From Arthrobacter burdickii (GTDB taxonomy: Bacteria; Actinomycetota; Actinomycetes; Actinomycetales; Micrococcaceae), in assembly GCF_030433645.1 (NCBI RefSeq), contig NZ_JAROCG010000001.1, positions 2,852,001-2,916,000 of the forward strand: a stretch of 64,000 bases of DNA, given 5' to 3'. Under the pieces are notes generated by a model. It worked only from the letters and a program-made list of their open reading frames with translations. It searched no databases and was not told the DNA's origin. Positions 3,320-49,568 of this stretch are shown in pieces. The position numbers and the translations under genes are program-made. The first letter of the stretch is position 1, and each line of letters opens with the position of its first letter.

Positions 3320-4009
3320 TCAGGTGACGGGGTCCAGCAGCAGGACGAGGTGGTTCCCGATATCGAGTGAGGTGGTGAAATCGCCCTCGGTGACGAGGTC
3401 GCCGGGTTCCAGGGCATCCGCGGCCGACACGATCACGCGTCCGCCCTTGTTGACGAGCGTCGCCGTGGGTCCGAGGGCGGTCAGCGATCCCAGCAGCATC
3501 CTTTCGAGTGACTGCACGGAGATGTCCGCCCCGACGATTCCCGCAACGGGTCCGCCTGCCTGGAGGACGACGGGGTGCGTGAAGGTCATGACGTACTCGT
3601 CCGTGCACAGGAAATCGATGTAGGGACCCGTGGCATGCGGTTCCCCGGTCTCGAAGGGAACACGGAACCACTCCGCCCTGAGGTAACGGTCCATGGAGCT
3701 CGTGCTGAAGTTGGCAAGGGCATCGACCCGCTCGAGGTCCGGGCCCTGCCACCAGGCGATGTAGCTTCGATCGGCTGCCACCAGGCCGGAGCCCGCGATG
3801 AACCCTGCCCCCGTGATGTAGCGCTCGGCGTCGCCCAGCATCGCCTCGACGGCAGGAAGGGCGAGGGCATCGATGGCCGATCCGTGCACCTTCCCCCGGA
3901 CGCCGGCCAGTTGGCGCCCCAACTCGACCGCCCAGTCGGCCAGTCCGGACTGCACGCCACCGATCTGGGCACGGATCCGCGTCACCGCGGGCGACAGCTC
4001 CGTCGTCAC
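3320..4009 (-). CDS. Stand-alone Cache-domain protein
   Basis: 229 residues with a Cache/PDC-type sensor core: the helical lead, then WWQGPD, the FSTSSMDRYL region, GPYIDFLCTDEYVMTFTHPV and GIVGADISVQSLE match the extracellular small-molecule sensor fold of chemoreceptors and kinases. No signal peptide or membrane segment is visible, so unlike most Cache domains it should sit in the cytoplasm. It starts with GTG four bases after the stop of the FadR regulator (possible SD AAAGGG), so the two are co-translated. The likely role is ligand sensing for the regulator or the adjacent polyamine-type importer; that is inference. Confidence 0.6.
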   Translation of the reverse strand: MTTELSPAVTRIRAQIGGVQSGLADWAVELGRQLAGVRGKVHGSAIDALALPAVEAMLGDAERYITGAGFIAGSGLVAADRSYIAWWQGPDLERVDALANFSTSSMDRYLRAEWFRVPFETGEPHATGPYIDFLCTDEYVMTFTHPVVLQAGGPVAGIVGADISVQSLERMLLGSLTALGPTATLVNKGGRVIVSAADALEPGDLVTEGDFTTSLDIGNHLVLLLDPVT

Positions 4010-4013
4010 GTGC

Positions 4014-4766
4014 TCACCCTTTCGTCATCGGAAGCTCCCGTGCCCTCCGCCTGAGTAGCCAGGAGACCATCGTGTGGATGAGGTCCCTGGTCGCGTTCTG
4101 GGCGGCGAGGACATCCCCATCGCCGATGGCCCCTGCCACCTCGTTCCTGTGCCCGACCGAGGACTCCCGGAAGACGTCGTCGGTGTAGGGCAGAACTGTG
4201 AGCGTCCCGAGGTCAGCCTGCATGCGGACCAACTCCCTGCCGAGGCGGGCCGACCGGGCGATCGCACCGACCTCCAGCATGAACTCCGAATCGACCAGGC
4301 GCCATGATAGCAGCGTGTCCTCGTGCGGGCGCAGGTATTGGTGCAGGCGGTGCAGGTCGGCTGCGTCGGCACGACGCGCGGCGATGCCCGCGCAGGCCGA
4401 GGCGATGGCCTCGTAGTGCAACCCCAGGTCGTTGATCTGCAGCCGGGTCGTCGCCTGCAGGTTCTGGAGCGCCAGGTCCGTGGAGGGCAGGTAGCCATCG
4501 ATGATGAAGCTGCCCCCGTTGCGGCCGCGAACCGTCGTGATCAGTCCGCGCTCGCGGAGGATGGACAGTGCCTCCCGCGCGGTGACGGGAGAGACTCCGA
4601 GGGCCGCTGCGAGCTCGACCTCCCGCGGCAGCCGCTGGCCGCCCCTCAGGAGGCCTGTCTCGAGCGCCTGCTCGATCCGCCGGGTGACCTCTTCCGCGAG
4701 ACCTCCGGTCCTGATCGGTGCGAAGACGGCCGACAACCCCCTCGACGACGCCCGATGATGGTCCAT
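4014..4766 (-). CDS. FadR-family (GntR) transcriptional regulator
   Basis: 250 residues: an N-terminal winged helix ([51 protein letters not shown]) followed by an all-helical FCD ligand-binding domain with spaced Asp/His residues. FCD regulators respond to small acids, amino acids or sugars. It is divergent from the ABC importer at 4901 and probably controls it. No ribosome binding site precedes the ATG; TACAGT lies exactly six bases upstream on the coding strand (4778-4773), so a leaderless mRNA is likely. It is followed by the Cache gene with a 4-bp gap. Confidence 0.85.
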
Positions 4767-4900
4767 GGCATCACTGTAACGAGGAGTTAACGCAGCCGTA
4801 TATACATAATAGATATGAAGTTATACTCTTTCTCGGACGCCTCGCTTGTGACGGGCTTCACACCGAAGCAGCCACACCGGCAGCAGAGAAAGGGCCACGG
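4767..4900. promoter_or_regulatory. Divergent promoter/operator region between FadR regulator and ABC importer
   Basis: 134 bp that is strikingly AT-rich for this window between about 4796 and 4835. It contains the perfect palindrome GTATATAC (4798-4805), a CATAAT box (4805-4810) usable as a -10 toward the importer, and TACAGT (4778-4773, reverse strand) as the -10 of the regulator. An SD-like AGAGAAAGGG precedes the ATG at 4901. The palindrome between the two promoters is a plausible FadR-family operator; this is inference. Confidence 0.5.
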
Positions 4901-5968
4901 ATGACCTCGGCAGCCATGCCACAGACCTCGCGCAGGACGACCGCGCCTGCAGGGCCGGCCATCCGGCTCATCGGTCTCTCCAAGCGGTTCGGCGAGACGA
5001 CCGCCGTGGACTCCGTGGACCTCGAGATTCGGTCCGGGGAGTTCTTCTCCATGCTCGGCCCCTCGGGATCGGGAAAGACGACGGTCCTCCGGCTGATCGC
5101 CGGCTTCGAACTGCCGACCGCGGGCGTCATCGAACTCGAGGGCAAGGACGTGTCCGCGCGGGCCCCTTTCGAACGGGACGTGAACACCGTCTTCCAGGAC
5201 TACGCCCTCTTCCCGCACATGAGCCTGATGGAGAACGTGGCGTACGGACTGAGGGTCCGGGGCGTGAACAAGGCGGACCGCAGGCAGCGGGCGGCGGAAG
5301 CACTGGAGCAGGTCCAACTCGGGAGCTTCCTCGACCGGCGCCCGTCCCAGTTGTCGGGTGGCCAGCGGCAGCGGGTCGCCCTGGCCCGGGCGCTGGTCGT
5401 CCGGCCGAAAGTGCTCCTGCTGGATGAGCCCCTGGGCGCACTCGACCTGAAGCTGCGCCAGCAGATGCAGGTCGAGCTGAAGGAGCTGCAACAGGAGCTC
5501 GGCATCACCTTCATCTTCGTCACCCACGACCAGGAGGAAGCGCTCACGATGAGCGACCGCATAGGGGTGTTCAACAAGGGCCGGATCGAGCAGGTCGGTA
5601 CTCCCGAGGAGATCTACGAACGGCCCAACGGATCATTCGTGGCCAACTTCGTCGGGACGTCCAACATCTTCCCCAGCACTCTGGCCCGATCCCTCTACGG
5701 CCGGGACGACCGGTTCTCCGTGCGTCCGGAGCGCATCCAGCTACGCCCCCTCCCCCCGGAAGGGCCCGGCACCGGGATCGCAGTGACGGTCACCGCCCTG
5801 GTCTACCTGGGCCACGCCACGCAGGTCCGGGGCACCCTTTCCGACGGGACGACCGCCGTCGCGCTCATCCCCGTGACCGCCGGCAGAGGCGGAGAATTCG
5901 CCGTCGGCCAGCCGGCAGTCCTGTCCTGGAACCAGCAGGACGTCGTCTGGCTTCCGCCGGCATTCTGA
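4901..5968 (+). CDS. ABC transporter ATPase, spermidine/putrescine (PotA) type
   Basis: 355-residue cytoplasmic ATPase of a polyamine-type importer. Visible motifs are Walker A GPSGSGKT (residues 53-60), Q-loop FQDYALFPH, signature LSGGQRQRV, Walker [12 protein letters not shown] and switch THDQEEA, followed by the C-terminal TOBE region ([10 protein letters not shown]). The open frame extends upstream to 4718, but the ATG at 4901 gives the usual family length and has a ribosome binding site. It is the first gene of a binding-protein and two-permease operon and is probably controlled by the divergent FadR regulator. Substrate could be a polyamine or another amine; the sequence does not decide. 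Confidence 0.88.
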
Positions 5969-6002
5969 CACACCCCTCCTCCCCATCCCGAAAGGCACCC
6001 TC

Positions 6003-7199
6003 ATGGCACGCACCCAGTCAGCCCTGCCCCTTCTCTGCCTCACGACGGCAACCCTGCTCGCCCTCACCGCCTGCGGCACCAGCAACGGTTCCACGGAGGG
6101 GCAGGGATCCGCCCCCGAACTCACGGCGCAGGCCGAGGTCGGCGAAGGCGAAGGCAGCCTCTCGATCCTGGCGTGGCCCGGCTACGTCGAGGACGGCACC
6201 AATGATCCGGCCGTCGACTGGGTGTCCTCGTTCGAGGAGGAAACGGGCTGCATGGTCGACTTCAAGCCCTTCGGCACCTCGGACGAGGCAGTGACGCTCA
6301 TGCGGAGCGGCCAGTACGACGTCGTCTCCGCGTCGGGCGACGCGTCGCTGCGGCTCATCGCCGGCGGCGATGTGGAACCCGTGAACGTGGACCTGGTCGA
6401 GAGCTACGAGGGGATCTACCCCTTCCTGAAGGACCAGCTCTGGAACACCGTCGACGGCGTCAACTACGGCGTCCCCCACGGCTGGGGAGCGAACGTGCTG
6501 ATGTACCGGGCGGACCAGGTGACACCTGCCCCCACCTCCTGGCGGAGCGTCTTCGACGACGCCGAACAGAACTCCGGAAAAGTCACCGCCTACGACTCCC
6601 CCATCTACATCGCGGACGCGGCCGTCTACCTGATGGCCCACAATCCCGACCTCGGCATCACCAACCCCTACGCGCTCGACGCCGATCAGCTGGCCGCTGC
6701 CGTCGATCTCCTCAAGGCCCAGCGCGAGCACGTCGGCGAATACTGGTCCGACGTCGTCAAGGAAGTGCAGTCGTTCGCCAGCGGCAGCAGCGTCATCGGC
6801 ACCACGTGGCAGGTGGGCGCGAACATCGCGCAGGCCGACGGCGCCGACGTGAAGACGGTGCTGCCCGAGGAGGGCGCCACCGGCTGGTCCGACACCTGGA
6901 TGATCGGCGCTGAGTCCGAGCACAAGAACTGCGCCTACAAGTGGCTCGACCACATCGCCAGCCCTGAGATCAACGCGCAGGTGGCCGAGTACTTCGGTGA
7001 ATCACCGGCCACCCCCGCCGCCTGCGAACTGACCCAGGACGCGTCGCATTGCGAGACCTACCACTCCGGCGATGAGGAGTACGCGAGCCAAATCTGGTAC
7101 TGGACCACGCCCGTGGCCGACTGCATCGATGGCCGCACGGACGTCGAGTGCACCGACTACTCCGAGTGGACCAAGGCCTGGACCGAAATCAAGGGCTGA
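6003..7199 (+). CDS. Substrate-binding lipoprotein of a PotD-like ABC importer
   Basis: 398 residues. A signal peptide ends in the lipobox LTAC with Cys24 as the lipidation site, so the protein is anchored outside the membrane. The body (LSILAWPGYVEDG, GCMVDFKPFGTSDEAVTLMRSGQYDVVSASGD, NYGVPHGWGANVLMYR) is of the PotD/spermidine-putrescine class. It captures the ligand and hands it to the two permeases downstream. It starts 34 bp after the ATPase and ends 34 bp before the first permease. The Cys-rich C-terminal part could form disulfides outside the cell. Confidence 0.88.
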   Translation: MARTQSALPLLCLTTATLLALTACGTSNGSTEGQGSAPELTAQAEVGEGEGSLSILAWPGYVEDGTNDPAVDWVSSFEEETGCMVDFKPFGTSDEAVTLMRSGQYDVVSASGDASLRLIAGGDVEPVNVDLVESYEGIYPFLKDQLWNTVDGVNYGVPHGWGANVLMYRADQVTPAPTSWRSVFDDAEQNSGKVTAYDSPIYIADAAVYLMAHNPDLGITNPYALDADQLAAAVDLLKAQREHVGEYWSDVVKEVQSFASGSSVIGTTWQVGANIAQADGADVKTVLPEEGATGWSDTWMIGAESEHKNCAYKWLDHIASPEINAQVAEYFGESPATPAACELTQDASHCETYHSGDEEYASQIWYWTTPVADCIDGRTDVECTDYSEWTKAWTEIKG

Positions 7200-7233
7200 C
7201 CCTCGAACGACGACAGGAAGGAAGAGTCGGGAC

Positions 7234-8130
7234 ATGTCCGTCGACACACGCCCAGCTGACGCTGCCCCGGGGAGACCCTCACGGCAGGCACTGTCAGCAC
7301 TGCTGTATCGGCGGGGGCGCCTGCGCCTCGCCGGTCTCCTGACCGCCCCGGCAGCCTGGCTCATCCTGGTCTACATCGCAGCGCTGAGTGCACTGCTCAT
7401 CACCGCGCTGTGGACGGTGGACACCTTCACCGGGAAGGTGTCCACCACCTGGACCCTGGACAACCTCATCCAGGTCACCACCGATCCCGTCTACCAGACG
7501 ATCGCCCTCCGGACGCTGCGGATCGCCGTCCTCGTGACCGTCGTCGACATGGTGCTCGCGCTCCCCATCGCCTTCTTCATCGCGAAGGTCGCCTCGCCGC
7601 GCTGGCGGGGTGTCCTCGTCGTCGCCATCCTGATGCCGCTCTGGGCGAGCTACCTCGTGAAGGCCTACGCCTGGCGCAACGTCCTGGCCGAGGGCGGGCT
7701 GCTCGAATGGCTGGGCATCAACAGTCCGGGCTACAGTGAGGCCGCCGTCGTCATCGCGTTGTCCTACATCTGGCTGCCCTACATGATCCTGCCGATCCAT
7801 GCAGGCTTCGAACGGGTGCCGGACTCCCTGCTCGAAGCCTCGAGCGACCTCGGCGCGAAACCTCTCGCCACGCTCCGGCTGGTCATCCTGCCGATCCTCG
7901 TGCCCTCCATCATCGCCGGGACCATCTTCACCTTCGCCCTCACCCTGGGCGACTACATCACCGCGCAGATCGTCGGCGGGACGACACAGATGCTCGGGAC
8001 CGTCGTCTACGCGAACGTCGGCGCCGCCAACAACCTGCCGCTGGCCTCCGCCGTCGCACTGATCCCGATCGCCGTCATCATGGCCTACCTCCTCATCGTG
8101 CGGCGCACCGGCGCCCTGAACAATCTCTAG
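7234..8130 (+). CDS. ABC importer permease, PotB type
   Basis: 298-residue inner-membrane permease, about six membrane helices. The EAA loop that docks on the ATPase is visible as LLEASSDLGAKPLATLRLVILPIL. The ATG at 7234 has an AGGAAGGAAG ribosome binding site 10 bases upstream; longer starts would overlap the binding-protein gene. A hydrophilic N-terminal tail of about 40 residues precedes the first helix. It pairs with the second permease starting ten bases after its stop. Confidence 0.88.
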   Translation: MSVDTRPADAAPGRPSRQALSALLYRRGRLRLAGLLTAPAAWLILVYIAALSALLITALWTVDTFTGKVSTTWTLDNLIQVTTDPVYQTIALRTLRIAVLVTVVDMVLALPIAFFIAKVASPRWRGVLVVAILMPLWASYLVKAYAWRNVLAEGGLLEWLGINSPGYSEAAVVIALSYIWLPYMILPIHAGFERVPDSLLEASSDLGAKPLATLRLVILPILVPSIIAGTIFTFALTLGDYITAQIVGGTTQMLGTVVYANVGAANNLPLASAVALIPIAVIMAYLLIVRRTGALNNL

Positions 8131-41785: not shown

Positions 41786-42111
41786 ACCGCTACGAGATCC
41801 GCCTGGCAGCGCAGATCGATGCGGGATGGGATTCCTGGTTCGAGGGCTTCACGCTCACGCAGGGTGCGGAGGGCTCCACCGTGCTCACCGGAGCCGTCGT
41901 CGATCAGGCCGCCCTCCACGGGGTGCTTCGGCGAGTCGGCGATCTGGGAGTGGTCCTGCTCTCGATCACCATCCTGCGCGACGACGTCGTCGACCGTACC
42001 CTGCGCACACAGAGCGCCGATGACGACGCACCAGAACCGCTGGCCTCAATCGGCAGGCGTGCCGGTACTACCCCTGCCCACGACGGAACGGCAGCCGGCG
42101 TCTGTCGATGA
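41782..42111 (+). CDS. Small protein co-translated with the membrane gene
   Basis: 109 residues. The first 75 (RYEIRLAAQIDAGWDSWFEGFTLT, STVLTGAVVDQAALHGVLRRVGDLG) resemble a common actinobacterial small protein found beside similar membrane genes; its role is unknown. Starts with an ATGA overlap. The C-terminal 30 residues read into the end of the converging MFS gene and look poorly conserved. Confidence 0.6.
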   Translation: MNRYEIRLAAQIDAGWDSWFEGFTLTQGAEGSTVLTGAVVDQAALHGVLRRVGDLGVVLLSITILRDDVVDRTLRTQSADDDAPEPLASIGRRAGTTPAHDGTAAGVCR

Positions 42112-43300
42112 TGCTGACGGTCGTGGCCAGTGCGGTGAGTGTTACCGCGAGGACGAGTGGCACCCAGGCGGCGGGGGATGTCGTTGCACCGGCGACGGCG
42201 GTTCCAGCTGATCCCGCGGCGATCTTGAGGGCACCCACCCAGATGAAGATCTGCCCGCGGGACTCGATGGGTGCATACTCGCTGCGGGCGGCCAATGTCG
42301 CCGCGAAGAACAGCGCGTTGGCCACCCCGGCGAGGCAGAATGCGACCAGGGAAGCCTCGAGGAAGGGGGCGAGAATCACCAGGATCAATGCTGCCGCCAC
42401 GAGGACGGCCAGGGAGCTCATGAGCCGGTCTGCGTCGCCGCGAAGCGGCCGGACCATGAGTCCTGCTGACCCGAGGAGATTGCCTACCCCGTACGCGGCG
42501 ACCAATAGTCCGGCCGTTGCAGCGCCGCCGAGGCCGGGAGCGATGGCGACCGCGTAGATCGGTAACGCGGCGACCGAAAAAGCGACCGTGACGGTGAGGC
42601 CCAGCGTGCGCCGCAGCGGTCCGTGTCGCGACATGCTCCGGAGTGTCTGGCGCGGCGACGGCACCGCTACCGCGTGATCGGGTGGTGCCTGGCGGGGAAG
42701 CACGAGGACCGCTCCGGCACCGAGGACCGCCGCTCCCGCGAGGACCAAGGATGCTGTCAGCGCGTCGGAGGTGGCCGCGATCCAGGCCACCGCCGCAGGA
42801 CCGAGGGTTCCGCTGATCCCGTAACTCGCCACATCCCAGCTCTGCGCCCTGCGCTGGTCGCGCTTCCCCGGTCCGGCGATGGAGGGCAGGCGGCTACTGA
42901 TCCCGCCGGTGAGCATCGGCCCGAAGACCCCGGAGACGAACAGCAGGACGGCCGGCCAGAGCGCCCATGTGACGGGGATGAGCAGTGCCGCGCCGGCAAG
43001 GAGCAGGCCATGGAGGACAGCGGAGAACGCGATGACCCGGCGTCCGTCGCGGGCGGTATCCAGCCGGCGGGCGATGAAGGGCCCCAGGAGGTGGGGGGCG
43101 GTGATGGACGCTCCCAGCAACCCCGCCAGCCAGTTGGGTAGCCCCGAGGCATGGGCGAGGAGGACGATGGCCACCACCGCACCGCCGTCGGCACTCCGGA
43201 CCAGTGTCGCAGCGAAGACGTAGCGGCCCAACGCCCCGCGACGACGCTTCATCAGCGCCGGAGCCCGGGTGTCGGGGTTACCGGTCGAGGCCGAGTTCAT
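42068..43300 (-). CDS. Major facilitator superfamily transporter
   Basis: 410 residues, about twelve membrane helices, with FIARRLDTARDGRRVIAF as the loop 2-3 motif. Family members are drug or metabolite exporters. Its ATG lies 23 bp inside the end of the DapA-like gene, so it is the last gene of the reverse-strand operon starting at 46429. Its 3' end overlaps the small gene on the other strand. Confidence 0.82.
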   Translation of the reverse strand: MNSASTGNPDTRAPALMKRRRGALGRYVFAATLVRSADGGAVVAIVLLAHASGLPNWLAGLLGASITAPHLLGPFIARRLDTARDGRRVIAFSAVLHGLLLAGAALLIPVTWALWPAVLLFVSGVFGPMLTGGISSRLPSIAGPGKRDQRRAQSWDVASYGISGTLGPAAVAWIAATSDALTASLVLAGAAVLGAGAVLVLPRQAPPDHAVAVPSPRQTLRSMSRHGPLRRTLGLTVTVAFSVAALPIYAVAIAPGLGGAATAGLLVAAYGVGNLLGSAGLMVRPLRGDADRLMSSLAVLVAAALILVILAPFLEASLVAFCLAGVANALFFAATLAARSEYAPIESRGQIFIWVGALKIAAGSAGTAVAGATTSPAAWVPLVLAVTLTALATTVSIIDRRRLPFRRGQG

Positions 43301-44174
43301 CGATCACTTCGACGACACGATGACGTTGGGCCTCGGTCAGGCCCTGCAGGGGCAGGGGCAGGCTGGATGTGGTCGCCAGCGCCAGGTGTTCGGCGATAGC
43401 GGCCACGACGCGGATGCTCCCACCGAACTCGGAGAACAAGTTCCACAACGGGGCGAGCCGTTCCGACTCGGCGATGGCGTCGGAGAACCGCCCTTCCCTG
43501 GCCGCCCGGGTGATCCCCAGGGCGAGGACCGGCAGGGTTCCTCCGATGACCGAGTACCAGGCGTCGCAGCCGGCGGCCAGTCCGGCGGCCGCGCGGGCGT
43601 CGCCCGAGACACCGATGGTCACGTGGTCGGGGATGACAGCCCGGATCTCCCCGACCCTGGTTCGGGCCGCCTCCGGTTCGGCGGGCACGCCGGGGATCTT
43701 GATGGAGGCTATCCCGGGCAGTTCGGCGATGCGCCCATACAGCTCGGGAGAAAAGATGAAGTGGGTGGTGCCCGGGTTGTCGTACACGATGACGGGCAGT
43801 GACGAGTGCGCCGTGACGGTCCGGAACAGTGCGAAGACGTCGTCCTCCGTGAGGGGCTGATACGTCATCGGTGCCAGGAGGAGGCCCGCTGCCCCGGCCT
43901 TCTCAACGTTGGCCGCGTTGGCGAGGACCTGCGAGGTCCGCAAGGCTCCGATGCCGATGACGACAGGAGTGCCGGCAGCGTGGTCGACGGCCAGCCGGGC
44001 GACGCGGCTCCTTTCCTCAGGGGTGAGGTACGCGTAGGAGCCCGTGGATCCGAGAGCCGTGATGGAGTCGACGCCCGCTGTCGCGAGACGTTCGATCAGG
44101 CGCACGAAAGCTCTCTCGTCGACCTCGTCGTCGACGAGTGGGGTGAGGGGGAAGGCGCTGAGGCCGGTGAACAT
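43278..44174 (-). CDS. DapA-like (dihydrodipicolinate synthase/N-acetylneuraminate lyase family) aldolase
   Basis: 298 residues. TIM-barrel class I aldolase with GSTGSYAYLTPEER, YDNPG and the Schiff-base Lys in ASIKIPG. The usual partner Tyr (VIVYDNPG) is present. The gene context (exporters, XRE-cupin regulator) does not fit lysine synthesis, so a catabolic or other pyruvate-aldol reaction is more likely. 27 bp after the EamA gene. Confidence 0.85.
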   Translation of the reverse strand: MFTGLSAFPLTPLVDDEVDERAFVRLIERLATAGVDSITALGSTGSYAYLTPEERSRVARLAVDHAAGTPVVIGIGALRTSQVLANAANVEKAGAAGLLLAPMTYQPLTEDDVFALFRTVTAHSSLPVIVYDNPGTTHFIFSPELYGRIAELPGIASIKIPGVPAEPEAARTRVGEIRAVIPDHVTIGVSGDARAAAGLAAGCDAWYSVIGGTLPVLALGITRAAREGRFSDAIAESERLAPLWNLFSEFGGSIRVVAAIAEHLALATTSSLPLPLQGLTEAQRHRVVEVIDELGLDR

Positions 44175-44201
44175 GGAGTGGCTCCGATGGTGGGTAGGGC
44201 G

Positions 44202-45101
44202 TTATGGGATGGGGTCCAGCGTCGACCCGCCGGGCAATTGCTCGGCGGGACTTCGCCGTCGGCCTCCACGTTGTGCTGCGGCGCCGGCCAGGACGACGAG
44301 GAGGATCCCGAGGAACTGGAGGGAAGAGGGTTGCTGGTGGAGCACGATCATCCCGAGCACCAGGCCCACGGCAGGTTCCAGGGCCATGAGGGTCCCGAAA
44401 GCGGTCGCTGTCATCCGGCGCAGCGCCAGCATCTCGAGGGCGAAGGGCAGCACGGGCAGGAGGATGGCCAGGCCGGCTGCCGCGGCGAGAATACCGGGGC
44501 TGAGGTGCCCCACCGCTTGCGGGATACCGATGGCCGCGGCGGTGACGGCCGCGACCGGGATCGTCAGGGACAGCGCGGAGATCCCGGTGAACCGGTCGCC
44601 GATGCGCTGGGTGAGCGTGATGTAGACACCCCACCCGACGGCGGCCAGTCCTGCGAACAGGATGCCGGTCAGGTTGATCGCGCCGTGCCAGGGCTCGGTG
44701 AGGAGGAGAACACCGCACAGGGCGAGACCGGGCCAGATCAACGCACGCAGGGAACGGCTCTGCAGGGCGGCGACGGTCAGCGGGCCGAGGAATTCGATGG
44801 CGACCGCCGTGCCGAGCGGGATGTGTTCGATCGCGGCGAGGAACCCGACTGTCACGAGCCCGGTGGTGATCCCCAATCCCAGCAGCACCGGAACATCGCT
44901 CCGCCGCACCCGCGACAGGGGTGGTCGGGCGATGATCAGGAAGATCACCGCGCCCATGCTCAGCCTGAGCCATGCGGTACCTCCGGCACCTACCTCCCGG
45001 ATGAGGTCCACGGAGAGGGCCGACCCCAGCTGCACGGAAAGGATCGCTGCCACCGCGAGCGCCCATGGCGGCACCGCGGCACCCGCCCTAGGACTGCTCA
45101 T
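44202..45101 (-). CDS. EamA-family (DMT) transporter
   Basis: 299 residues, ten predicted membrane helices in two EamA repeats (LRLSMGAVIFLIIARPPL, LGTAVAIEFLGPLTVAAL, ALEPAVGLVLGMIVL). RhtA-like members export amino acids. ATG 45101 has GGGGAG and overlaps the B3/B4 gene by 14 bp; a longer frame reaches 45158. In this operon it could export the compound handled by the DapA-like enzyme. Confidence 0.85.
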   Translation of the reverse strand: MSSPRAGAAVPPWALAVAAILSVQLGSALSVDLIREVGAGGTAWLRLSMGAVIFLIIARPPLSRVRRSDVPVLLGLGITTGLVTVGFLAAIEHIPLGTAVAIEFLGPLTVAALQSRSLRALIWPGLALCGVLLLTEPWHGAINLTGILFAGLAAVGWGVYITLTQRIGDRFTGISALSLTIPVAAVTAAAIGIPQAVGHLSPGILAAAAGLAILLPVLPFALEMLALRRMTATAFGTLMALEPAVGLVLGMIVLHQQPSSLQFLGILLVVLAGAAAQRGGRRRSPAEQLPGGSTLDPIP

Positions 45102-45831
45102 GATGGCGCTCCCCGTCGTCGGTGATGAAGCGGCCGACGACGGTGACGTCCGGTCCACAATCCATCAGGTGGCCGGTCAGGTCGTCGGCAGCGGCAGTGA
45201 GGGCATCATCGGTCAGGGGCGCCAGGGCGTCGAGGATGAACAGAGCCGTGGTTGTACCGTCGGTGAGCTGGGTGCGGCGGCCCTGACGCCAGTTCCAGCG
45301 ACGACACGTCACGCCCGCCTCATCACACCAGATGACCTCCCCGGGGTCCGGGTGTTCGATCACTTCATCGCCGCCGGCGATGGTGTCGAAGGCCTCGACG
45401 CCTGTGGCACGGATGAGTCGGGGCGGACCGGTGTAGCCGGCCAGGTCCTCGCCGCCCAGTGGCACCTGGTGCAGTACCGACACCGCGTTGTAGATGTCGG
45501 TCAGTCGGTTCACCCGGGGCAACCCGGACCCCGCGCGGCGCAGCAGCGACTCCAGGCTGTTGCGCGTCCGCTGCGGCTTCGCCCCGAACGACTTGTAGGC
45601 CTCGCGCCAGGCAGCCACCTGTGGGAGGTTTTCCACCGGCAGTTCCTCCAGCGCTTTCCGCGCCGCAGTTTCCGCTGCCTGCAGCAGCAGGTCGCCGGAC
45701 TCGTCGCTGGGACCGGGCAGCAGCCCGTCCACCGCCAGCAGGACGGCGCGGTAGTCGGGCCGGAGCGAGAACACCGCATCGTCCACCCAAGCACCGTCCA
45801 GGAATTCCTGGAGCATCTCCGTCTCACGCAC
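45088..45831 (-). CDS. B3/B4 tRNA-editing-like domain protein
   Basis: 247 residues. The B3/B4 fold of the phenylalanyl-tRNA synthetase beta subunit is recognised by EAYKSFGAKPQRTRNSLESLLRR, LPRVNRLTDIYNAVSVLHQVPLGGEDL and GEVIWCDEAGVTCRRWNWRQG. Free-standing copies may hydrolyse wrongly charged tRNA. GTG 45831 follows GGAGG and overlaps the regulator by eight bases. Its place in an exporter operon suggests protection against a noncanonical amino acid (inference). Confidence 0.8.
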   Translation of the reverse strand: MRETEMLQEFLDGAWVDDAVFSLRPDYRAVLLAVDGLLPGPSDESGDLLLQAAETAARKALEELPVENLPQVAAWREAYKSFGAKPQRTRNSLESLLRRAGSGLPRVNRLTDIYNAVSVLHQVPLGGEDLAGYTGPPRLIRATGVEAFDTIAGGDEVIEHPDPGEVIWCDEAGVTCRRWNWRQGRRTQLTDGTTTALFILDALAPLTDDALTAAADDLTGHLMDCGPDVTVVGRFITDDGERHHEQS

Positions 45832-46429
45832 CGGCTACCTCCACTCCATGTCCTGACCCTGCACCGGGCTCGAAGACCGCCAGGGAGAACCATGCCGGTT
45901 CCGTGCCTCCGTTGGCGTAGGCATGGGCGACGTCGCCGGGGAAGGACACGGCGTCACCCTCCTCGAGGACGAACGACTCGTCCCCCACCTCTACTGTGAC
46001 CGACCCCTGCCGGACCTGCAGCAGTTCCTTCGTGCCCTCCGAGTGGGCCTCGCTTCCGTGTCGGTCCCCTGGACCCAGCGTCCAATCCCAGAGCTCCACC
46101 ACATCCGGCAGTTCCGTGCCGGCCACCAGGACACCCCGGCCATCGGATTCCGACCTCCACAGAACCGCGCCCTCGCCCTTCCGGGTGACCGCCACGGGCC
46201 TGGGGCGCGGTGACTCGACCAATGCCGGCAGCCCGACGCCCAGCGCGTCCCCGATTCTCAGCAGCGTACCCACGCTCGGGTTCACCGCTCCCTGCTCAAC
46301 GTTGACGACCATCCGCCGGCTCACCCCCGCCGCTTCCGCCAACTGATCGAGGGTCCAGCGCCTCGACTGTCGCTGCTCCTTCACCCGATCGCCGATCGCC
46401 GTGGCCAGGGCCGATGTGCTTGCATCCAT
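45824..46429 (-). CDS. XRE-family regulator with C-terminal cupin domain
   Basis: 201 residues: HTH (RWTLDQLAEAAGVSRRMVVNVEQGAVNPSVGTLLRIGDALG) and a cupin sensor (HSEGTKELLQVRQGSVTVEVG, LEEGDAVSFPGDVAHAYANGG). Such proteins repress their own operon and respond to small ligands. ATG 46429 follows TATGAT (46441-46436) by exactly six bases with no SD, so the mRNA is leaderless; a dyad covers the promoter. First gene of a five-gene operon. Confidence 0.88.
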   Translation of the reverse strand: MDASTSALATAIGDRVKEQRQSRRWTLDQLAEAAGVSRRMVVNVEQGAVNPSVGTLLRIGDALGVGLPALVESPRPRPVAVTRKGEGAVLWRSESDGRGVLVAGTELPDVVELWDWTLGPGDRHGSEAHSEGTKELLQVRQGSVTVEVGDESFVLEEGDAVSFPGDVAHAYANGGTEPAWFSLAVFEPGAGSGHGVEVAGA

Positions 46430-46435
46430 AAGTGC

Positions 46436-46461
46436 ATCATACTGCACTAGAAGTGCAGTAT
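46436..46461 (-). promoter_or_regulatory. Promoter and operator of the XRE-cupin operon
   Basis: TATGAT (46441-46436) is the -10 box. ATACTGCAC-TAGAA-GTGCAGTAT (46439-46461), a perfect 9-bp dyad, overlaps it and the spacer; a further AGTGCA half-site is at 46431-46436. This is a textbook autorepression layout. Confidence 0.7.
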
Positions 46462-46528
46462 TTAATGCTTCACGTGCCGAGTGGCGACGGCACCTCTTTC
46501 CGTGTCGGCGAGTCGACCTGACGACGAA

Positions 46529-46554
46529 GGCGGGCCCGGGAGTCCGGGCCCGCC
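46529..46554 (-). terminator. GC-rich hairpin after the subtilase
   Basis: A perfect 11-bp stem (46529-46539 / 46544-46554) with loop GAGT lies 15 bp past the subtilase stop. TTCGTC rather than a T-run follows on the reverse strand. Confidence 0.75.
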
Positions 46555-46569
46555 ACCATCATTGATGCC

Positions 46570-49371
46570 CTACCGGGTGACAGCCACGGTCCGCACCGAG
46601 TACGACAGGACCTTGTTGTAGCCGGCCTTGGAGCCCGTCACCCCGACGCTCATGGTCTTGCCGAGGTCCGCGGTGGTGAGCTTGTAGGTCTTCGCGGTCG
46701 CACCTGTGATCGCAACTCCGGTGCGGAACCACTGGTAGGTGAACGTCGTCCCCGTGGTCCACGTGCCGGTGTTTGCCGTCAGCGTGTAGTTCAGGCGAGT
46801 GGTACCCGACACGGTCGGCTTCGAGGCGGTCAGCGTGCCTGCGGCGACGGCAACCGTCCGCACCGAGTACACGGTCGCGTTGGAGTACCCGGCCTTGGAG
46901 CCGGTCACTCCGACGCTGATGTTCTTGCCGAGATCGGCCGCGGTGAGCGCGTACGTCTTTCCGGTCGCGCCGGTGATGGGGACGCCGGTGCGGAACCACT
47001 GGTACTTGAAGGTCGTCCCCGAGGTCCAGGTGCCGGTGTTCGCCGTGAGGGTGTAGCCGACCTTGGTCGTGCCGGTGACGGTGGGCTTTGCGGTTGCCAG
47101 GCTTCCGGCCACGACGGTCCCGGACCACGCCGAGTACTTCAGGACGGTGGTGTAGCCGGGCTTCGAGCCGGTCACTCCGACGCTGACACTCCTGCCGAGG
47201 TCGGCGGCCGTCAGGGCGAAGGTGGCGCCTGTCGCTCCGGTGATCGGGACACCGGAGCGGTACCACTGGTACTTCAGCGTCGTCCCCGTCGTCCAGGCGC
47301 CGGTGTTCGCGGTCAGGGTGTAGCCGACCTTGGTCGTACCGGAGACCGTCGGAACGGGGGCCGTCAGGGAGCCGGCGGTGACGGCAGCGGTCTGAGCGGA
47401 CACCTTCGTCAGCCCGTCATAGCCGGGCTTGGTCCCGATTGCCTGGACGGAGATCCTGTGTCCGATGTCCTCGAGGGTGATCGCATAGGTCGGTCCGGTT
47501 TTGTCGGCCAGGAGGCCGTCGTCGCGGAACCACCGGTACTCGAACGCCGTGCCTGTGGTCCAGATTCCTGCATCAACCGTGAGGGTCTGGCCGTAGGATG
47601 CTGCGCCCCTGATGAGCGGGGTCGAGCCGGTGAGCTCACCCGGTGCGATCGGACCGGTCTGCGCGGAGGCCGCAGAGACGGATGCCGAACCGGTCCTGGT
47701 GCCGGTGACGACGACGCTGATGCGCTTGTCGTGGTCGGCCGACTCGAGCACGTAAACCTTGCCGGTGCCGTCGACGGTGATGGGCTCCCCGTTGCGCAGC
47801 CACTGGTAGGTGAGCGTCTCCGGTGCCGGCGACCACGTTCCCGGATGAGCGGTGAGAGCCTGGCCGACGCGCGGGTTCCCCGTGATGGCCACGGAGCCGG
47901 GGACGATGACCGTGCCAGGCCCGGGCGGAGTAGGCAACCCGCCGGCAACTGCTGCATCGACGGCTGCTCGGGCGTCGATGAGTCCGGTGCCGCAACCCCC
48001 TCCGCACGGGATCGGCAGCGGCCTGGTCGTGCCCTTGAGGATGTCCTCGACCGTCGCCGGGGTCAGGGTGCGGTTGGCGGAGAGCATGAGGGCGGCGGTC
48101 GCTGAGACGTGCGGTGCTGCCATCGAGGTGCCCTGGTAGAACGCGTAGTCCTGCCCGGTGAAGTCCTCGACCGGACCGCTGGAACCCATGTTGATCGTGG
48201 ACAGGATGCCGCCGAGCGGATCGATGTCCATGTTGCCGCCGGGGGCGACGACGTCGACGATGTCGCCGTAGTTCGAGTAGGGCGCCAGTCCCCCGTCGCG
48301 GCCGGAAGCAGCGACGGCGATGACGTGCTCGCAGTTGGCCGGGCTGACGAAGGCTGCGTTCTCGTTGTCGTTGCCGGCGGCCGCGACGACGATCGATCCA
48401 CGGCCGAGAGCCCCGTTGATCGCGCTCTGCCAGCTGGTGGTGCACCCGCCGCTGCCGCCGACACTGAGGTTGACGACCTGGGCGGGGTTCGGGTTCGCCG
48501 GGACGCCCGGTACGGCTCCTCCGGAGGCCCAGATCACCCCGTCCATGATGTCGGACATCCAGCCACCGCATTCGGCGAGGGCCCGTACGGGGAGGATCTT
48601 CGCCCCCGGTGCGATGCCCACGACGCCCTGGTCATTGGCGGCGGCCGCGATGGTTCCCGCGACATGGGTGCCATGCCAGGACGATGGCGCTGTACCGCAC
48701 TCCCCCGATTCGCCGTAGTCGCCTTCATCGGACGCGTCCGGGTCCCGCCCGTCACCGTCGCGGCCCTCCGCGGGATCACCGATCATGTCGTAGCCCGGGA
48801 GGACGTTGGCGTCGAGGTCTGCGTGGCGGGTGATGCCGGTATCGACGACGGCGACCGTGATCCCGTCTCCGGTCGTGGTGTCCCAGGCAGCGTTGGCATC
48901 GATGCCGTTCTCGCCGAAGATCGGCCACTGGTAGTGGTAGAACTCGTCTTGCGGCGACAGCGAGGTGACCTGCAGGATCTGGTCCGGCTCGGCGTACTCG
49001 ACGGCGGTGGTCGCCTCGAGCGACTCGACGAATGCCTCGGCCTCGCCTGCCTCGAGCTCACGGCTCGTCTCCACGACGGTAGCCCCGGTGCCCATGACCT
49101 TGAGCTCCTTGACCGAGATGCCGAGCTCCCTGGCCTTCACCCCATAGGCATTGCCGCGAGTTCTGGAGCTCGCCTGCCCCTGGTCCTGGAACTTGACGAT
49201 GAAGCGGTCGGTCGGCTGCTGCGCCGCGGTGCCGCGGACCTCCGGGTTGGCGCCCGGCTCCGGTGGTGCTTCCGCGGCGGACGCCGGGACGGCCAACAGC
49301 GGACTGGCGAGCAGGGCTGCGATGGTGGCTGCCGCCGCTCCTCGGGTGATACGGCGGGGGCGGGTGAACAT
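46570..49371 (-). CDS. Secreted subtilase (S8) with five Ig-like repeats
   Basis: 933 residues. Signal peptide (ITRGAAAATIAALLASPLLAVPASA), an inhibitor_I9-like propeptide (DRFIVKFQDQ), then an S8 catalytic domain with Asp (VAVVDTGI), His (SWHGTHVAGT), oxyanion Asn (AAAGNDN) and Ser (GTSMAAPHV). The C-terminal ~440 residues are five repeats of about 88 residues (GTTKVGYTLTANTG, YQWFRTGVPITGA, LTAADLGKNISVGVTGSKAGY), the last two nearly alike. ATG 49371 has GAGGA upstream. Exported protease; no LPXTG or membrane anchor. Confidence 0.92.
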   Translation of the reverse strand: MFTRPRRITRGAAAATIAALLASPLLAVPASAAEAPPEPGANPEVRGTAAQQPTDRFIVKFQDQGQASSRTRGNAYGVKARELGISVKELKVMGTGATVVETSRELEAGEAEAFVESLEATTAVEYAEPDQILQVTSLSPQDEFYHYQWPIFGENGIDANAAWDTTTGDGITVAVVDTGITRHADLDANVLPGYDMIGDPAEGRDGDGRDPDASDEGDYGESGECGTAPSSWHGTHVAGTIAAAANDQGVVGIAPGAKILPVRALAECGGWMSDIMDGVIWASGGAVPGVPANPNPAQVVNLSVGGSGGCTTSWQSAINGALGRGSIVVAAAGNDNENAAFVSPANCEHVIAVAASGRDGGLAPYSNYGDIVDVVAPGGNMDIDPLGGILSTINMGSSGPVEDFTGQDYAFYQGTSMAAPHVSATAALMLSANRTLTPATVEDILKGTTRPLPIPCGGGCGTGLIDARAAVDAAVAGGLPTPPGPGTVIVPGSVAITGNPRVGQALTAHPGTWSPAPETLTYQWLRNGEPITVDGTGKVYVLESADHDKRISVVVTGTRTGSASVSAASAQTGPIAPGELTGSTPLIRGAASYGQTLTVDAGIWTTGTAFEYRWFRDDGLLADKTGPTYAITLEDIGHRISVQAIGTKPGYDGLTKVSAQTAAVTAGSLTAPVPTVSGTTKVGYTLTANTGAWTTGTTLKYQWYRSGVPITGATGATFALTAADLGRSVSVGVTGSKPGYTTVLKYSAWSGTVVAGSLATAKPTVTGTTKVGYTLTANTGTWTSGTTFKYQWFRTGVPITGATGKTYALTAADLGKNISVGVTGSKAGYSNATVYSVRTVAVAAGTLTASKPTVSGTTRLNYTLTANTGTWTTGTTFTYQWFRTGVAITGATAKTYKLTTADLGKTMSVGVTGSKAGYNKVLSYSVRTVAVTR

Positions 49372-49568
49372 GCGCGTCCTCGGTGGTCGTCCCACCATGG
49401 TGGGCAGCGGCGGGGAAGCCCTGATGCTGTCCCCTGCCGAAGCGTATCCGAGAGACGACGTGGTTCTACCAGCAAGTAACCGCAGTGTTTCCGCAGGTCA
49501 GCGGCAAGGTAATGACACCCAATCGACCGGGCCGCTCCGCCTTCGGTGCCAGATTTGCTAGCGCGCGG

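Follow-up and report, generated by a model that had tools for sequence, protein, structure and literature searches.

A putative canavanine-resistance operon with a CtdA-family tRNA-editing protein in Arthrobacter burdickii

A five-gene operon of Arthrobacter burdickii, led by the gene of an XRE-cupin regulator, probably confers inducible resistance to canavanine, or to a very close arginine analogue, through trans-editing combined with export, as judged from comparison with known systems and related loci. Canavanine, a toxic look-alike and antimetabolite of arginine made by legumes, is an O-substituted homoserine. The operon lies in the window analysed here, a stretch of 64,000 nucleotides (assembly GCF_030433645.1, contig NZ_JAROCG010000001.1, positions 2,852,001–2,916,000), and coordinates without a locus label are positions of this stretch. 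Labels beginning with L and G denote sampled loci and sampled genomes, respectively, and "own" refers to the genome of the window. Computational analysis revealed the gene set of the operon, its operator and the conservation of that operator, the membership of the editing protein in the CtdA family, an aldolase distinct by sequence from DapA and a recurring linkage to canavanine-type gene sets.

The operon and its editing protein

Profile searches against Pfam and NCBIfam identified five open reading frames at 42068–46429, all on the minus strand, which belong to the families named in a preliminary description of this DNA. The first encodes the XRE-cupin transcriptional regulator (45824–46429; 201 amino acids from the ATG at 46429; HTH_3 and Cupin_2). 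It is followed by the genes of a stand-alone B3/4 protein of the tRNA-editing type (45088–45831; 247 amino acids; PF03483), an RhtA-like exporter of the EamA/DMT family (44202–45101; 299 amino acids, with the start placed at an internal ATG; PF00892), a DHDPS-family Schiff-base lyase/aldolase of a non-DapA subfamily (43278–44174; 298 amino acids; PF00701) and an MFS transporter (42068–43300; 410 amino acids; PF07690). The genes overlap or nearly touch, as previously described: the regulator and B3/4 genes share 8 bp, the B3/4 and EamA genes 14 bp and the DHDPS and MFS genes 23 bp, and the sole gap, from EamA to DHDPS, measures 27 bp. Judged by the B3/4 protein, the nearest named relative is Arthrobacter agilis strain 4041 (89%).

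The B3/4 protein matches PF03483 with 76.1 bits against a cut-off of 29.3, and this is its only Pfam match at an E-value of 0.001, with no other domains of phenylalanyl-tRNA synthetase (PheRS). Two solved structures match it below the same E-value: 9f7e (E = 2.9e-44), entitled "CtdA Canavanyl tRNA Deacylase", and 9mkl (E = 8e-42), a B3/4 domain-containing protein. Its identity to 13 other stand-alone proteins is 35%–69%, versus 23% to its own PheT; four B3/4 proteins from canavanine-type regions share 39%–43% identity with it, and the B3/4 protein of Rhizobium leguminosarum about 40%. Furthermore, the 14 aligned stand-alone proteins, that of the window included, share the invariant motifs FG, D.YNA.S, P.GGE, EV.W.D and GVTCR.WNWRQ..RT, most of which are missing from the corresponding domain of the own PheT. 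By its sequence, the protein belongs to the CtdA family. CtdA hydrolyses canavanyl-tRNA-Arg as a stand-alone enzyme (Hauth, Funck and Hartig 2023, PMC10018355). The same study demonstrated the activity with the P. canavaninivorans protein as well as with a Clostridium homologue of 35% identity, observed canavanine incorporation in deletion strains, and states that the R. leguminosarum B3/4 homologue is located among canavanine degradation genes.

The regulator and its operator

The operator (46431–46461, minus strand) comprises three half-sites and contains the dyad TACTGCACT-N3-AGTGCAGTA at 46440–46460. This dyad, claimed in the preliminary description to be perfect over 9 bp, is indeed perfect and lengthens to 10-bp arms, with 0.02 matches expected in the window at up to three mismatches. 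The half-sites are TGCACT at 46452–46457, AGTGCA at 46443–46448 and again TGCACT at 46431–46436, the last of which lies 6 bp beyond the second and immediately 5' of the ATG. This third half-site, which like the modular make-up of the gene set is absent from the preliminary description, adjoins a −10-like hexamer, TATGAT, at 46436–46441. An in-frame GTG at 46447 falls within the operator.

Among 54 related XRE genes, all taken from loci that similarity to B3/4 or DHDPS had revealed, and mutually related rather than independent, TGCACT-N3-AGTGCA with at most two mismatches is present at −26 to −29 of the start codon in 38, against a background of 0.12% at random positions of the same loci, and the third half-site is exact in 42, against 0.19%. 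This sample excludes the window and nine duplicate loci and includes two genes of L038. The operator consensus has TAT between half-sites two and three; 16 of the 54 genes do not fit the operator, and by eye the spacer differs in some of them (L040 and L043). The conservation supports local autoregulation of a leaderless gene with a predicted transcription start. As for the leaderless autoregulated promoter proposed earlier, the spacing fits and the operator is conserved, whereas a consensus scanner detected neither a sigma-70 type promoter nor a terminator in 41900–46700.

In the 3.95-Mb genome, the dyad is the only site with fewer than three mismatches, and a genome-wide search for further members of the regulon yielded one other site, with three mismatches, a level that the reversed-pattern control also reaches. 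A wider regulon was therefore rejected. The regulator itself is 37% identical (E = 3e-38) to that beside the CtdA-type gene on the R. leguminosarum plasmid pRLN3, which likewise contains HTH_3 and Cupin_2.

On the far side of the operator, a G+C hairpin with 11-bp arms (46529–46554) stands between the stop codon of an S8 protease gene and the operon promoter; it was not called as a terminator and may separate the transcripts of the protease and the operon. The protease, an S8 subtilase encoded at 46570–49398, has a long C-terminal part that is repetitive by eye.

The aldolase and the linkage to canavanine-type gene sets

In DapA, Lys161 is the Schiff-base residue, Tyr133 has a recognised role and Arg138 binds aspartate semialdehyde. 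The DHDPS-family protein of the operon keeps Lys161, Tyr133 and Tyr107 (E. coli DapA numbering) and has Thr in place of Arg138, as do 34 of the 34 other aligned members of its subfamily. With 112.5 bits it does not reach the cut-off of the dapA equivalog (206.15). A branch supported at 100/99, to be read with a long-branch warning, separates it from E. coli DapA, the product of the Rhizobium operon dapA and its own paralogue L092. The own genome has four DHDPS-family genes; L092 retains Arg138 and groups with E. coli DapA, and the paralogue L094 has Thr at position 138 and falls on the same side of the tree as the operon protein (L011 was too short and was left out of the tree). The closest solved structure is 2r8w, AGR_C_1641p of Agrobacterium (217.8 bits), which bears a locus name only. 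Given the replaced Arg138, the separate grouping, the score below the cut-off and the other DapA-like gene in the genome, we rejected identity with lysine-pathway DapA; to judge from these features, the protein is a non-DapA enzyme. That the aldolase might be an ordinary lysine-pathway enzyme, the outcome which the preliminary description had named as speaking against its proposal, is thus contradicted.

The genes of the operon recur beside gene sets of the canavanine type. On pRLN3 of R. leguminosarum, the order is XRE-cupin, B3/4, ABC importer, pyridoxal-phosphate (PLP) enzyme, SMR, homoserine dehydrogenase, aldehyde dehydrogenase and a gene annotated as dapA, and about 11 kb from the B3/4 gene lie ArgP, LysE and a DHDPS-family gene. 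We infer that this is the canavanine region meant in the CtdA report (PMC10018355); R. leguminosarum has two PLP genes, either of which may be the published gamma-lyase. The DHDPS protein of the window is 43% identical to the LysE-linked protein of R. leguminosarum, 48% to a Sphingomonas plasmid protein and 28% to the product of the operon dapA. Both the Sphingomonas and the R. leguminosarum DHDPS genes stand directly behind LysE and near the ArgP regulator; in the Sphingomonas region, ArgP, SMR, LysE and DHDPS occur together, and its LysE is 61% identical to the Rhizobium LysE.

In Microbacterium (L038), the genes for XRE, B3/4, a PLP lyase, DHDPS, MFS and an ArgP-like protein (29%) are closely packed. 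Starting with the lyase, each gene overlaps the next by 4 bp (the last three joints), and two SMR genes are divergently oriented. A Paenarthrobacter locus (L012) combines XRE, B3/4, an Lrp-like gene, a PLP lyase and two SMR genes. The lyases of both loci are 69%–70% identical to the Rhizobiaceae operon enzymes, with which they form one group (100/100); their identity to three members of that family in the own genome does not exceed 38%. An Arthrobacter locus (L004) has a B3/4-EamA pair without XRE, an amino-acid ABC importer, an ArgP-like LysR regulator, an aldehyde dehydrogenase and a homoserine dehydrogenase whose score exceeds the equivalog cut-off. Moreover, XRE, B3/4 and DHDPS genes are adjacent on Pantoea and Citrobacter plasmids (two of the eight DHDPS hits opened among 192 records), B3/4 also lies beside DHDPS and XRE in G174, and homologous regulator and editor genes are neighbours on Rhizobiaceae plasmids.

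Not every PLP enzyme near such genes is of this kind. Those of L052 and L051 resemble canavanine lyases by BLAST, but they group with own-genome cystathionine-type enzymes and were rejected as such lyases. The PLP enzymes of L091 (Sphingomonas) and L079 (Bosea) fall outside the group of the Rhizobium operon; the label "canavanine-type" for both regions therefore rests on gene content. As a separate observation, the Paenarthrobacter contig of L012 carries two B3/4 genes in two different settings (3905–7990).

The B3/4 search found 60 loci, 50 of which had enough flanking sequence for neighbour counts. Near these 50 B3/4 genes we found XRE in 34, EamA in 20, DHDPS in 12, MFS in 6 and a PaiB-like FMN_bind_2 gene in 11. 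XRE and B3/4 thus form the commonest pair, and EamA, DHDPS and MFS come and go. Within the genus, 13 of 35 genomes (the own genome included) carry B3/4, with EamA adjacent in all 13 and XRE in 11. Nine of the 38 genomes scanned within the genus encode the DHDPS protein (in G008 the match covers residues 1–193 only), in every case with XRE and EamA beside it. Scanning of 35 genomes for both genes gave B3/4 in 13, DHDPS in 8 and both in 5, in all five of which they share one operon. All five genes are carried by G346 and recur in L003, L005, L006, L008, L018 and L133, with partial MFS matches in L005 and L006. The gene set that the preliminary description had proposed to seek in other genomes therefore recurs in several loci, as a modular and not a fixed unit.

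Across 296 genomes of the class, B3/4 was found in 40, the DHDPS subfamily in 14 and both in two (G000 and G174). Outside the own genome, the class sample comprises 13 DHDPS loci; the partners seen there are XRE and EamA in L105, B3/4 and XRE in L110, MFS in L115 and, weakly, MocR in L112; in L111 an MFS-like open reading frame adjoins DHDPS by eye. B3/4 is absent from L114 (1823–7184), where an ArgP-like gene, LysE, a MocR-type regulator and a DHDPS-MFS pair are neighbours. MFS follows the DHDPS gene repeatedly, even at loci that lack B3/4 (L114, L115 and L130–L132).

Two other settings of B3/4 were observed. The FMN_bind_2 gene (PF04299; for example at 6731–7396 of L009) accompanies B3/4 in 11 loci, in nine of which EamA was not found, and both are present in L045 and L049. 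On three Deinococcus plasmids (L080, L087 and L088), B3/4 stands with a MocR-type regulator, a GNAT acetyltransferase and a pyridoxamine-oxidase-like gene, and two of the three loci have an EamA-family gene that is not close to that of the window. A canavanine-acetylating GNAT has been described from Lactobacillus curiae (PMC10416765).

Proposed function, alternatives and known systems

For the operon we propose the following putative mechanism. The XRE-cupin protein would act as a repressor on the three-half-site operator over its own −10 region, and binding of the compound or one of its derivatives to the cupin domain would release it. The B3/4 protein, by homology, would hydrolyse mischarged tRNA-Arg, and the RhtA-like EamA protein may export the free amino acid, which is an O-substituted homoserine. 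More speculatively, the compound might give rise to a 2-oxo acid, such as keto-canavanine or the keto acid of homoserine, that the DHDPS enzyme processes; export of a product might fall to the MFS protein. Speculative candidates for the chemistry of the aldolase are elimination from keto-canavanine, cleavage of 4-hydroxy-2-oxobutanoate and capture of canaline. Since one genus pairs a similar regulator and exporter with the editor alone, with aldolase and MFS alone, or with both, the aldolase might replace the editor. We suggest, quite tentatively and as something we would sooner doubt than expect, that it is an undescribed canavanine-detoxifying enzyme, for example a Schiff-base lyase that splits keto-canavanine to free hydroxyguanidine, or an aldolase with the keto acid of homoserine as its substrate. 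The preliminary description had inferred defence against, or breakdown of, a toxic amino-acid-like compound: the defence is supported by comparison, with canavanine as the likely compound, whereas a role of the aldolase in breakdown is speculative.

Several observations weigh against a canavanine-resistance function. Guanidine riboswitch control is known for many, not all, B3/4 genes. Here, the window gave no Rfam match of any kind at gathering scores, and a genome-wide search confined to the guanidine-I class (RF00442) found none, with a positive B. subtilis control; such control was therefore rejected. According to Pfam, none of the five operon genes encodes a PLP-dependent canavanine gamma-lyase. 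An orthologue of the Rhizobium-type lyase is missing from the window genome (best match 39%), whose best match to the Sphingomonas PLP enzyme, which itself groups nearer to ordinary enzymes, is 46%. Likewise, a search of 38 genomes of the genus at E = 1e-130, run without a positive control and thus showing little, found the Rhizobium-type lyase in none. An association of B3/4 with canavanine degradation genes, which the described cases show but which is no property of the enzyme as such, was hence not found in the window genome; such a lyase stands beside B3/4 in the relatives L012 and L038. Of 13 plasmid regions with B3/4 opened among 178 records, those of Tistrella, Geminocystis and one Pantoea lack such partners (a Nonomuraea region among the 13 carries no annotation). 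XRE was not found near 16 of the 50 B3/4 loci, L004 included, and three genomes of the genus (G006, G012 and G013) have XRE, EamA, DHDPS and MFS without B3/4. Class-wide co-occurrence of B3/4 and DHDPS shows no excess above chance, the two genes lying less than 1 kb apart in both genomes that have them. At 8 of the 13 non-own class DHDPS loci, two of which end at contig ends, no gene of the query set is adjacent; the function of DHDPS is therefore not tied to canavanine everywhere. The substrates given for EamA and MFS are guesses from family membership.

A further such observation concerns the editing fold itself. In a Simkaniaceae locus (L061, 5983–8298), a CtdA-like B3/4 domain (PF03483, 91.6 bits) is fused in frame to the N-terminus of lysyl-tRNA synthetase (lysS_bact, 556 bits versus 427.6), and by eye the same fusion is present in Ca. 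Neptunochlamydia (L060, 5983–8286), like L061 from a chlamydial metagenome-assembled genome. To our knowledge, a lysyl-tRNA synthetase with a built-in B3/4 domain would be unusual. The fusion suggests editing on tRNA-Lys; the fold can thus serve another tRNA, and substrates may differ within the family.

These fusions bear on the strongest alternative, a system of the same kind directed at another non-protein amino acid, with B3/4 editing a different tRNA. Such a compound could be canaline or homoarginine, among analogues of arginine, lysine or homoserine, or an aromatic analogue mischarged on tRNA-Phe. In addition to the fusions, the lack of the Rhizobium-type lyase in the window genome and the editing of Tyr-tRNA-Phe by B3/4 domains in PheRS count for this alternative. 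However, the B3/4 protein is much closer to those of canavanine-type regions than to its own PheT, close relatives of the operon carry the lyase of the Rhizobium region together with SMR genes, and CtdA showed no editing of homoarginyl-tRNA-Arg (PMC10018355). We thus regard another compound as possible, and clearly less probable than canavanine or a very close arginine analogue. It is unlikely that the operon serves amino-acid homeostasis or utilisation, with exporters for surplus, DHDPS as a catabolic aldolase and B3/4 as incidental quality control. The RhtA-like exporter and the DHDPS-MFS pair of L114, which stands beside a MocR-type regulator and ArgP-LysE without B3/4, would fit that function, yet B3/4 is most often paired with XRE (34 of 50 loci), the regulator gene has a conserved operator, and homologous regulator and editor genes are adjacent on Rhizobiaceae plasmids. 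Neighbours assembled by chance or shared transfer, without a common function and with an ordinary lysine enzyme as the aldolase, are very improbable in spite of the class-wide co-occurrence at chance level, given the overlapping genes, the recurrence of all five in six loci, the single operon in five of five genus genomes, the Thr at position 138 and the grouping of the Arg138-bearing L092 with E. coli DapA.

CtdA and canavanine breakdown are already known. A search of an open-access library found no description of the operon, the operator or the link to the aldolase; a plant root-hair review was the one paper there that mentioned both canavanine and dihydrodipicolinate synthase. As far as searched, the actinobacterial form of the operon, the operator itself and the association with a DHDPS enzyme other than DapA are new. 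The earlier statement that no described pathway has this gene set accordingly holds for the operon in the literature searched and not for the editing family, whose function is known from CtdA (PMC10018355). If our interpretation is true, canavanine defence by tRNA editing extends widely in soil Actinomycetota, controlled by a transcriptional regulator rather than by riboswitches, and a member of the DHDPS family often annotated toward lysine biosynthesis gains a testable role. Trans-editing, export and a metabolic enzyme could then be compared, within one regulator and operator system, as different solutions to the same plant toxin.

Among known systems, MsiA is an exporter of the LysE type with a LysR-type regulator. 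As the canavanine exporter of Mesorhizobium tianshanense (PMC3333776), it shares export as a resistance route with the operon, whose exporter is of the EamA family. CtdA (PMC10018355; PDB 9f7e) is, like the window protein, a stand-alone B3/4 protein of similar length; the window gene differs in belonging to an operon that begins with its own operator and XRE-cupin gene, and in that no riboswitch and no Rhizobium-type lyase were found. The threonine/homoserine exporter RhtA belongs to the same family as the window EamA protein, which scores 144 bits with the NCBIfam RhtA profile but remains below the equivalog cut-off of 354. DapA and 2r8w share the fold family and the Schiff-base lysine with the window enzyme, which has Thr for the Arg138 of DapA. 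Finally, pRLN3 of R. leguminosarum resembles the operon in having XRE-cupin beside B3/4 and, some 11 kb away, a DHDPS gene of the same subfamily behind LysE; there, an importer, a PLP lyase, SMR, and homoserine and aldehyde dehydrogenases complete the set, whereas the operon of the window has EamA and MFS instead.

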